This document shows positions 38,333 to 41,144 of a stretch of DNA of 56,974 nt, piece after piece. The notes beneath the pieces are model-generated. The model was given only the letters and a program-made list of their open reading frames with translations. It did not search any database and was not told the origin of the DNA. The stretch lies in the NCBI GenBank assembly GCA_015660645.1, contig DQKS01000042.1:1-56974 (forward strand). Reading direction: 5' to 3'. Both the position numbers and the translations under genes were made by a program. Within the stretch, counting starts at the first letter, position 1; each line of letters begins with the position of its first letter. This DNA comes from Gammaproteobacteria bacterium (lineage in GTDB: Bacteria > Pseudomonadota > Gammaproteobacteria > Magnimaribacterales > Magnimaribacteraceae).

Positions 38333-40336
38333 ATGATAAATTGGGGTATTTTGGGTACTGGTTCTATAGCTAATGCTTTTGCTAAAGCTTCGAGCCAAGC
38401 TGATGGTTCGTGTTTAAAAGCTGTTGCAAGTCGGTCGCAAGAAAGGGCAGATAATTTTGCTAAAGAATACTCATTAAGAAGTTTCGGTAGTTATAACTCT
38501 CTTATAGAAGATCCAGAAATAGATGCAATTTATATTGCTACTCCGCATCCAGATCATTTCGAATGGGCTCTTAAGTCATTGAATAACAAGAAATCAGTCC
38601 TTTGTGAAAAACCAATGACAATAAATGCCACAGAGACAATGGTTTTAATTGAATCAGCTAGAAAAAATAATGTACTTTTGATGGAAGCTTTCATGTACAA
38701 AACACATCCTCAAACGCAAAAAATCTTAGAACTTGTAAAAAAAGAATTAAAAAGTCCTGTAACTATTAATGCGGAGTTTTGTTTTTCAGTTGAAGTCCCG
38801 GATACACACAGGTTGGTTAATAAAGATTTGGGTGGGGGTTCTATAATGGATATAGGTTGCTATCCACTTTCAATGTCTAGATTGTTGGTAGGCTGTTTGC
38901 AAGGAAAGGCATTCTCTAATCCTGTTTCTATAAAAATAGAAGCAGAGCTTAATTCAGACGGCGTGGATCTTAACTCGTCTGCTGAACTTCAATTCGATGA
39001 TAGATCTATTGCCAATATAGCTTCAGCAGTCAACAAAAAGACTGAAAGTTCAGTTACTATCTCAGATGGCATAAAGACTGTATTTATAGATCAGCCTTGG
39101 CACTGTGGAGAGTTTACTAAAAGGCGCTCAACTATAGTTGTCTCAGATCAAGAAGATAATAGGGTTAATTATGAAGTAATCTCTACTAAAGATATTTATG
39201 CGCTAGAGATTGAGCATTTTACGAAACTCTTAAATGAATCAAAAGTAGAATCAGATATTATTTCGCATTCTGACAGTCATGGAAACATGATTGCTTTAGA
39301 TACTTGGAGAAAAGGTGCCGGGGTAGTTTATCCGGATGATAAACCTGAAAATAGGTTTGGTTCTATTCTTGGAGTCGATCTGACGGAAGAAAGGAAAAAA
39401 GTTAAGTATAAGAGCCTGGCTGGTCTAGATAAAAGATTATTTCCATTGGTTTTTGGCTGCGATAATCAATCTGACAGTAATCATGCTTTTGGTATGTTTG
39501 ATCATTATTACCTGGAAGGTGGTAATGTCTTTGATACAGCATATATTTATAATGATGGACGAAGCGATAAGTACTTAGGTCGTTGGATAACTTCAAGAAA
39601 TAACAGAGAGGAGATAGTTATTTTAGGAAAAGGAGCTCACACTCCGCATTGTTTCCCATCCGCAATTAGACCTCAATTAGATGAAACTCTAGACAGGCTA
39701 AATACTGACTATTTAGATATTTATTGTTTGCATCGAGACAACCTTGAGGTTCCAGTAGGTGAGTTTATTGATTTACTTAACGAACTAAAGAAGGAAGGTA
39801 AAATAACAGTATTTGGAGCATCTAATTGGTCTTTAGAACGATTTAAAGAAGCTTCAGATTATGCGAAATCAACCAATCAGGAATCTTTTAGCGTTTTAAG
39901 TAATAATTTTAGTTTAGCTAGAATGATTGAACCTGTTTGGCCGGGCTGTATTAGTTGCTCCGATGATGATTTTAAATCCTTTCTTACACAGGAGCAGGTT
40001 GCAATATTTCCTTGGTCAAGTCAGGCAAGAGGGTTTTTTCTAGATAATCAAGAATTCCAAGGTGCTACCCATGGAGCGAATCCAAACCAAGAGGAGCAAG
40101 ACCGAGTTTGGGGAGATAAAGACAATCAAGAAAGGAGAAGCAGGTGTTTTACTTTGGCCAAAGAGCTGGGTGTTGAACCCATTCAAGTTGCATTAGCTTT
40201 TGTACTCAATCAGCCTTTTCCTTCCTTTCCTCTAATAGGACCAAGAAACTTCTTTGAGACAATGAGTTCATTGTCAGCTATAGAAATTACTTTGACGAAT
40301 GACCAAGTCATGTGGCTAGATTTAAATTCTAATTAG
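38333..40336 (+). CDS. Fused Gfo/Idh/MocA oxidoreductase + aldo/keto reductase
   Basis: N-half WGILGTGSIANAF and CEKPMTINATE; C-half VFDTAYIYNDGRSDKYLG, IVILGKGAH, LDIYCLHRDN, VFGASNWS. Continuous 667-aa frame. Confidence 0.93.
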   Translation: MINWGILGTGSIANAFAKASSQADGSCLKAVASRSQERADNFAKEYSLRSFGSYNSLIEDPEIDAIYIATPHPDHFEWALKSLNNKKSVLCEKPMTINATETMVLIESARKNNVLLMEAFMYKTHPQTQKILELVKKELKSPVTINAEFCFSVEVPDTHRLVNKDLGGGSIMDIGCYPLSMSRLLVGCLQGKAFSNPVSIKIEAELNSDGVDLNSSAELQFDDRSIANIASAVNKKTESSVTISDGIKTVFIDQPWHCGEFTKRRSTIVVSDQEDNRVNYEVISTKDIYALEIEHFTKLLNESKVESDIISHSDSHGNMIALDTWRKGAGVVYPDDKPENRFGSILGVDLTEERKKVKYKSLAGLDKRLFPLVFGCDNQSDSNHAFGMFDHYYLEGGNVFDTAYIYNDGRSDKYLGRWITSRNNREEIVILGKGAHTPHCFPSAIRPQLDETLDRLNTDYLDIYCLHRDNLEVPVGEFIDLLNELKKEGKITVFGASNWSLERFKEASDYAKSTNQESFSVLSNNFSLARMIEPVWPGCISCSDDDFKSFLTQEQVAIFPWSSQARGFFLDNQEFQGATHGANPNQEEQDRVWGDKDNQERRSRCFTLAKELGVEPIQVALAFVLNQPFPSFPLIGPRNFFETMSSLSAIEITLTNDQVMWLDLNSN

Positions 40337-40383: not shown

Positions 40384-40613
40384 ACAGCGGGTGTCCCGCA
40401 TTCAATTTATTACAAGGGGAATTGAGTGTTCGGTTGTTTGTTTCCCTTCAAAGGAGGTGATCAATATTAGTATTTATTTAATAGCAGGAACGACAGGAGG
40501 TGCCTTCTGACACGGGGTATCCCCGGTTCCGGCTGCTGGTCTTAGTTATTGGCAGTTGAAAAGAGGTTGAGATACCCTTTTCTAGAATCCCCGCCAAGTG
40601 CGGGGATTTTTTT
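40384..40613 (+). ncRNA. Candidate structured ncRNA with extended SD-like element
   Basis: Multiple hairpins: GCGGG-TGT-CCCGC, AAGGGGAA/TTTCCCTT, CGGGG-TAT-CCCCG nested within AGCaGGAAC/GTTCCgGCT. Ends in a strong terminator; no convincing ORF; next gene is convergent. Confidence 0.6.
40586..40613 (+). terminator. Strong intrinsic terminator ending the candidate ncRNA
   Basis: AATCCCCGC-CAAGT-GCGGGGATT followed by T-run. Confidence 0.95.
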
Positions 40614-40616
40614 ATA

Positions 40617-41015
40617 CTATTTTCTAGCTCCTTCGCTATCAAATATTCTTAGGTAAGTTAATTGTTCATGATCATCGACGTTTCTAACTTTTACATAATC
40701 ACCTTCTTCTGCCAAAATTACGTCACCTGTTTTTACTTTCAAAGTAGCCTTGTGTTCAATTCCAAAACTTGGATTGGTGCCGTGCCCAGCTTCGTGGTTA
40801 GAGTATTCAACTATCTCCATCTCTCCCGATCCAGACAAGAAAGTATAAACAACTTCAGACTGTATAAGCCTATGGCCTCCAGTAGATCCTTTAGGTTTGA
40901 TGACAGTTTTGCTAGCAACTAACTTTCTTAATAGCTCATTTGTCCAAGTTGTATACGAGTCATTATTTTTAGAAATAGAGTCACCTACTGAAAAGTTTTT
41001 ATATTTTTTTGCCAT
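40617..41015 (-). CDS. Cupin-domain protein
   Basis: STGGHRLIQSEVVYTFLSGSGEMEIVEY and LKVKTGDVILAEEGDYVKVRNV; MAKKYKN start at 41015 rather than 41105. Confidence 0.65.
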   Translation of the reverse strand: MAKKYKNFSVGDSISKNNDSYTTWTNELLRKLVASKTVIKPKGSTGGHRLIQSEVVYTFLSGSGEMEIVEYSNHEAGHGTNPSFGIEHKATLKVKTGDVILAEEGDYVKVRNVDDHEQLTYLRIFDSEGARK

Positions 41016-41144
41016 AATTTTCTTAGTACAGTTATAGAAAAATATTCTAACACTTTCTTTAAGTTTACTCCGTGGATACTTGCGAGATATGATGCTTATG
41101 TACAATAAATCATTCAGATTGGTTTTTAAATAAAAGAGGTGACT

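Follow-up and report, generated by a model that had tools for sequence, protein, structure and literature searches.

The window, the whole 56,974-nt stretch of DNA that was analyzed, comes from a SAR86-type ocean bacterium (order, SAR86 cluster). An RNA of ~225 nt lies on its + strand between a fusion gene (38333 to 40336) and a convergent ORF ending at 40617, and it occurs once in the genome (G000; 102 contigs, 1.42 Mb). The product of the upstream gene (667 amino acids) carries Gfo/Idh/MocA and aldo/keto reductase domains found by Pfam, in keeping with a preliminary description of the locus as following a fusion gene, and several relatives likewise have an ORF of this fusion size upstream of the RNA. 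The convergent ORF (40617 to 41105, − strand), which had been called a cupin, had no Pfam match in the part scanned. The 5′ end of the RNA was placed at the position after a TATAAT-like box in relatives, with the start near AGSGGTGTC, and the 3′ end at the terminator U-run. The features are as follows.

40386 to 40613, + strand: whole RNA (fold z = −3.25, homologs in most same-family genomes, and clade comparison of promoter and start).
40396 to 40433, + strand: H1 hairpin (40396-40398 with 40431-40433 and 40399-40407 with 40420-40428); both-side changes in 9 of 12 pairs in the window family.
40414 to 40448, + strand: pseudoknot, H1 loop AAGGG (40414-40418) with CCCTT (40444-40448); 98.9% of cells paired.
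40450 to 40462, + strand: extended Shine-Dalgarno (SD) sequence AAAGGAGGTGATC; in relatives, an A/G swap at one position keeps the wobble with the 16S tail.
40466 to 40510, + strand: mini-ORF encoding ISIYLIAGTTGGAF; AUU start, 14 codons, UGA stop followed by C.
40483 to 40534, + strand: P_A, GGAAC (40487-40491) with GTTCC (40526-40530) and outer AGC (40483-40485) with GCT (40532-40534); 5′ arm inside the ORF.
40495 to 40499 with 40504 to 40508, + strand: P_B, invariant in the window family.
40513 to 40517 with 40521 to 40525, + strand: P_C, one covarying pair in the window family.
40533 to 40555, + strand: P4 hairpin (40533-40537 with 40551-40555); both-side changes in 4 of 5 pairs.
40558 to 40582, + strand: P5 hairpin with loop UGAGAU; both-side changes in 7 of 9 pairs.
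40586 to 40613, + strand: intrinsic terminator, from sequence and fold; stem 40586-40594 with 40600-40608 and U-run.

The region folded at −79.5 kcal/mol, against −64.6 kcal/mol for shuffles (200 of 200 shuffles beaten; z = −3.25, + strand); the same test on the − strand gave −2.53. Among 19 sequences of the window family, 25 of 55 pairs had changed on both sides (0 of 500 shuffles), slid structures scored much lower, and H1, P4, and P5 supplied the bulk of the covariation. H1 covaries in the NORP90 group (described below) as well, and P_A and P3 are supported by covariation across families, P3 (TTTGCC/GGTAAA) standing in place of P_B and P_C in families other than that of the window. The outer part of P_A and P4 are mutually exclusive. 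A terminator was found in every lineage read. P5 is confined to standalone SAR86 copies and absent from those linked to EamA; its loop, U-G-R-R-A-U (window 40564 to 40576), with G[T/C]..[A/G]C closing it, hardly varies among these standalone copies and is a candidate contact site.

On re-reading, the sequence, coordinates, and most stems given in the preliminary description for 40384 to 40613 were correct, including the hairpin at 40558 to 40582 and the terminator, both of which are conserved. Conservation does not extend to its hairpin at 40387 to 40399; the 5′ hairpin that is conserved is H1 (40396 to 40407 with 40420 to 40433). The pseudoknot between 40414-40418 and 40444-40448 had been overlooked. 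In the junction element that it outlined, the GGAAC/GTTCC stem is conserved; AGGAG/CTTCT is invariant in the window family, and covariation is silent on it. The central proposal, a structured and unannotated RNA at about 40386 to 40613 (+ strand), held up: the RNA is conserved in most same-family genomes, across SAR86 and beyond, it covaries (25 of 55 pairs), and it belongs to no Rfam family.

The 3′ edge of the pseudoknot lies 4 nt before GGAGG. One of its pairs exchanges among A-U, G-C, and G-U in the window family, and its arms covary between lineages as CAGGG/CCCTG, GAGGG/CCCTC, AAGGGA/TCCCTT, and CAGAGA/TCTCTG (by eye; counted by the tool in part). The covarying pseudoknot takes in the CCCU adjoining the SD, a transporter gene lies downstream in two families, and ribosomal-protein operators with start-site pseudoknots are known (PMC10931766), all of which would suit a ligand- or protein-sensing element, in which a metabolite or ribosomal protein bound by the 5′ pseudoknot controls access to the SD and the mini-ORF merely couples the signal. 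We consider such an element unlikely, as the RNA is standalone in most lineages with no target gene in common, its loop and linkers lack the constancy of length and sequence that a tight aptamer would have, and Rfam yielded no riboswitch match. An operator for a ribosomal protein in particular was rejected, since no ribosomal-protein gene adjoins the RNA at any copy read.

The AAAGGAGGTGATC site is the only one in the whole window, even with 1 mismatch allowed (0.06 expected). Its complementarity of 10 to 12 nt spans the whole 16S tail, for which we used the generally known sequence, presumed to hold for SAR86 as well. Of the 118 occurrences of the decamer GGAGGTGRTC in 892 kb of SAR86 loci, 117 fall within the RNA; the loci were chosen for holding the decamer, and their remaining DNA is still informative. 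An RNA with such a sequence, nearly unique to it in SAR86 DNA and paired along the entire tail through the A/G wobble swap, might act as a decoy that sequesters the anti-SD or unengaged small subunits, its ORF being incidental. A decoy, however, needs no open 14-codon frame with a fixed stop, and titration requires one very abundant RNA species, and we judge this very unlikely. Pairing of the SD with the 5′ arm of the terminator, possible by eye in family f4 and some of f2, is not general, and folding gives it no support.

No same-strand gene of annotated size lies downstream of the SD, as had been described; the further claim that no coding sequence follows it failed, since GGAGGTGATC, which holds the SD motif, is followed by a conserved 14-codon ORF running from AUU to UGA (40466 to 40510), with AUG as the start in three other gammaproteobacterial lineages. 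The first residue is presumably fMet. Every copy read has a single frame after the SD (ATT A[G/A]T AT[T/A/C] ... TGA, 14 codons). A wide scan of one genome per species (at least 109 SAR86 copies) used a pattern that fixes ORF codons 1 to 3, except the second position of codon 2, and leaves the remaining codons free; among the matches listed, frame, length, and UGA stop were kept in 109 of 109 SAR86 copies and in 0 of 11 unrelated pattern matches. In-frame stops numbered 0 against 24 expected by column shuffle of 58 distinct sequences, a generous test that ignores relatedness, and 0 against 8.8 among 21 representatives. Because the distance between SD and ATT differs among copies, none of the possible starts further upstream keeps the frame in all of them, which leaves AUU as the sole shared start candidate. 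The best evidence bearing on translation comes from the other lineages, where AUG stands in the place of AUU, which argues that the mini-ORF is translated.

The conserved frame, length, and stop, together with an MSNxCxxxxSGGTC-like peptide consensus in the AUG-type lineages, could indicate a small mRNA whose functional product is the 14-residue peptide and whose structure tunes translation. Yet at least 56 different peptides occur among the 109 SAR86 copies listed, AUU or AUC instead of AUG should lower peptide output, and the ORF contains one arm of a conserved stem. An excess of change at third codon positions was sought in the SAR86 ORFs and not found, and residues vary widely, suggesting that what is kept is the frame and its length, not the peptide; classical codon conservation of the mini-ORF was rejected. 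A small mRNA thus appears quite unlikely.

A DNA search of 60 relatives returned a single copy in most same-family genomes (75 to 93% identity, up to ~240 nt) and a shorter core of the RNA in other families of the host's order. Besides its wide presence in SAR86, the RNA has homologs in at least four further lineages of Gammaproteobacteria, and in three of these the ORF starts with AUG. An initial class-wide model search (R1) matched SAR86 only, and the further lineages came through the NORP90 group: a NORP90-labelled metagenome-assembled genome (3.6 Mb, unlike the streamlined SAR86 genomes) led to RNA copies in dozens of its relatives. That genome (NVUL01000047.1, locus L097) is labelled SAR86 cluster, probably in error; its RNA is of the NORP90-group form. 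Among 29 NORP90-group copies, 26 start with AUC and 3 with AUU, and 25 have 14 codons. A model built from this group alone recovered SAR86 copies at the right place (E down to 8e-8) and, in a class-wide sample, AUG-start copies in families f55, f67, and f113. AUG starts were read in loci L240, L241, L244, L259, and L260, and the AUG-type peptides are MSNECINGASGGTC, MSNDSMCAASGATC, MSNGCINGASEGAC, MSNRCMYRTSGGTC, and the 11-codon MSNGCIEVLTG, each ending at a stop. Weak class-wide matches (L245 to L257) were chance-like where read, and a search of E. coli returned no copy. Four GC-rich gammaproteobacterial loci (L280 to L283, at about position 1500 on the matched strand) have GGAGGTGATCNNATGTCTAGTG and a nearby terminator and lack the CCCTG pseudoknot; they may represent a remote variant of this RNA or an analogous small-ORF RNA.

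The RNA was described as standalone, which is right for the window, SAR86 families f1 and f3, and other lineages, where neighbors differ, and wrong for families f2 and f4, where an EamA/DMT transporter gene (PF00892) follows right past the terminator (at least 61 loci). The EamA start in f2 and f4 is mostly ≤16 nt from the U-run, leaving little space for a promoter of its own. EamA homologs of f1 are located elsewhere and have no RNA; with the standalone copies of f1, f3, and the other lineages, this suggests that standalone is probably the ancestral state. NORP90-group copies lie downstream of one ORF and convergent to another, which we take from their sequences to be PilZ-like and helicase-like, respectively.

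Known classes gave no match. Rfam 15 at gathering threshold found nothing in the RNA (the window, 9 SAR86 loci, and 14 NORP90-group loci), a permissive scan returned weak matches only (E up to 10), and literature searches brought up precedents and no description of this RNA. It is not 6S RNA, as had been stated: RF00013 has no match here, and the 6S RNA of this genome is on another contig (G000:C33). A repeat element was rejected, with one copy per genome, as was a viral or plasmid element, with no true match. Several GGA motifs, csrA in f1 and f3, and the terminator with its U-run might point to a CsrA/RsmA-type sponge or an Hfq-dependent base-pairing sRNA; the GGA motifs, however, sit in the SD and stems rather than in hairpin loops. 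A CsrB/RsmY-type sponge was rejected, since the sampled f2 and f4 genomes carry the RNA and yielded no csrA, and so was an Hfq-dependent sRNA (Hfq in 0 of 41 SAR86 genomes, controls positive). As the searches of SAR86 yielded no Hfq and those of the EamA-linked families no CsrA, these pathways are no explanation, and we hold either to be highly improbable. The detection of csrA in f1 and f3, but not in the f2 and f4 genomes that were sampled, parallels the split between standalone and EamA-linked copies, probably through shared ancestry.

The RNA is probably a new regulatory RNA family, judged from sequence comparison. The most likely reading, to which we give about even chances, is a new ribosome-recruiting family, the RNA fold being set by the binding of 30S and by translation of the mini-ORF. 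The pseudoknot would present the SD, and the long helix of SD and anti-SD would let a 30S subunit be captured even though the start codon is weak. As the ribosome initiates, crosses the ORF, and slowly terminates at UGA-C, it would open or hold apart the stem embedded in the ORF, and translation status would thereby be written into the fold; P_A has one of its arms within the ORF, which is why the fold would depend on mini-ORF translation. Output in most lineages would be in trans or via RNA stability. In the two SAR86 families, the RNA would have become the leader of the EamA exporter, whose transcription would have to pass the terminator. In Staphylococcus, conserved AUU/AUA starts go together with extended SDs (PMC13009471), and a pseudoknot at a ribosome-binding site can keep 30S in an inactive complex (PMC10931766); both are precedents that support the ribosome-capturing reading. 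The widely varying peptide residues and third codon positions that are no freer were counted against it. Equilibrium folding with SD and start blocked, or with a ribosome at the stop, left the terminator unchanged, so a simple attenuator is not supported. More tentatively, and with considerable doubt, we raise the possibility of a new ribosome-sensing class in Gammaproteobacteria, a standalone RNA that captures initiating 30S via the whole 16S tail, reports initiation and termination capacity (in SAR86, through the AUU start and UGA-C stop) by refolding, acts in trans, and was recruited as an EamA leader in one SAR86 branch.

The RNA is apparently undescribed and deeply conserved. Its SAR86 hosts, where the search for Hfq found none, are among the most abundant bacteria of the ocean that are uncultured, and its pseudoknot, near-maximal SD, and AUU-start mini-ORF form a rare combination. 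Comparing its natural AUG, AUC, and AUU versions would be a way to test for sensing of initiation or termination capacity by a dedicated RNA.

Leader-peptide attenuators (TnaC, SpeFL, and amino-acid operon leaders) likewise combine a good SD with a short ORF, base-pairing of that ORF with RNA further downstream, and an intrinsic terminator, and the transporter gene past the terminator in SAR86 f2 and f4 (at least 61 loci) adds to the likeness. Unlike them, this RNA has no following gene in most lineages, its peptide lacks the residue conservation of arrest peptides, and it has an AUU/AUC start and a 5′ pseudoknot, with no terminator switch in equilibrium folding. SgrS, PhrS, and SreA are dual-function sRNAs or riboswitches acting as sRNAs; they resemble it as terminated RNAs with a small ORF or as leader-like elements without their gene, whereas here Hfq was not found in the order (0 of 41 genomes) and Rfam gave no match. 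The operator pseudoknots of ribosomal proteins (alpha operon/uS4 and rpsO/uS15 "entrapment") also place a pseudoknot at a ribosome-binding site, where 30S binding is expected to be allowed (PMC10931766), but this RNA is standalone, has no ribosomal-protein gene, and carries its pseudoknot upstream of the SD rather than around the start codon. Finally, Staphylococcus aureus cvfC1, ccpN, and infC share the conserved AUU/AUA start with an extended SD (PMC13009471); those starts begin real proteins, whereas here the start begins a 14-codon ORF within a structured, terminated RNA.
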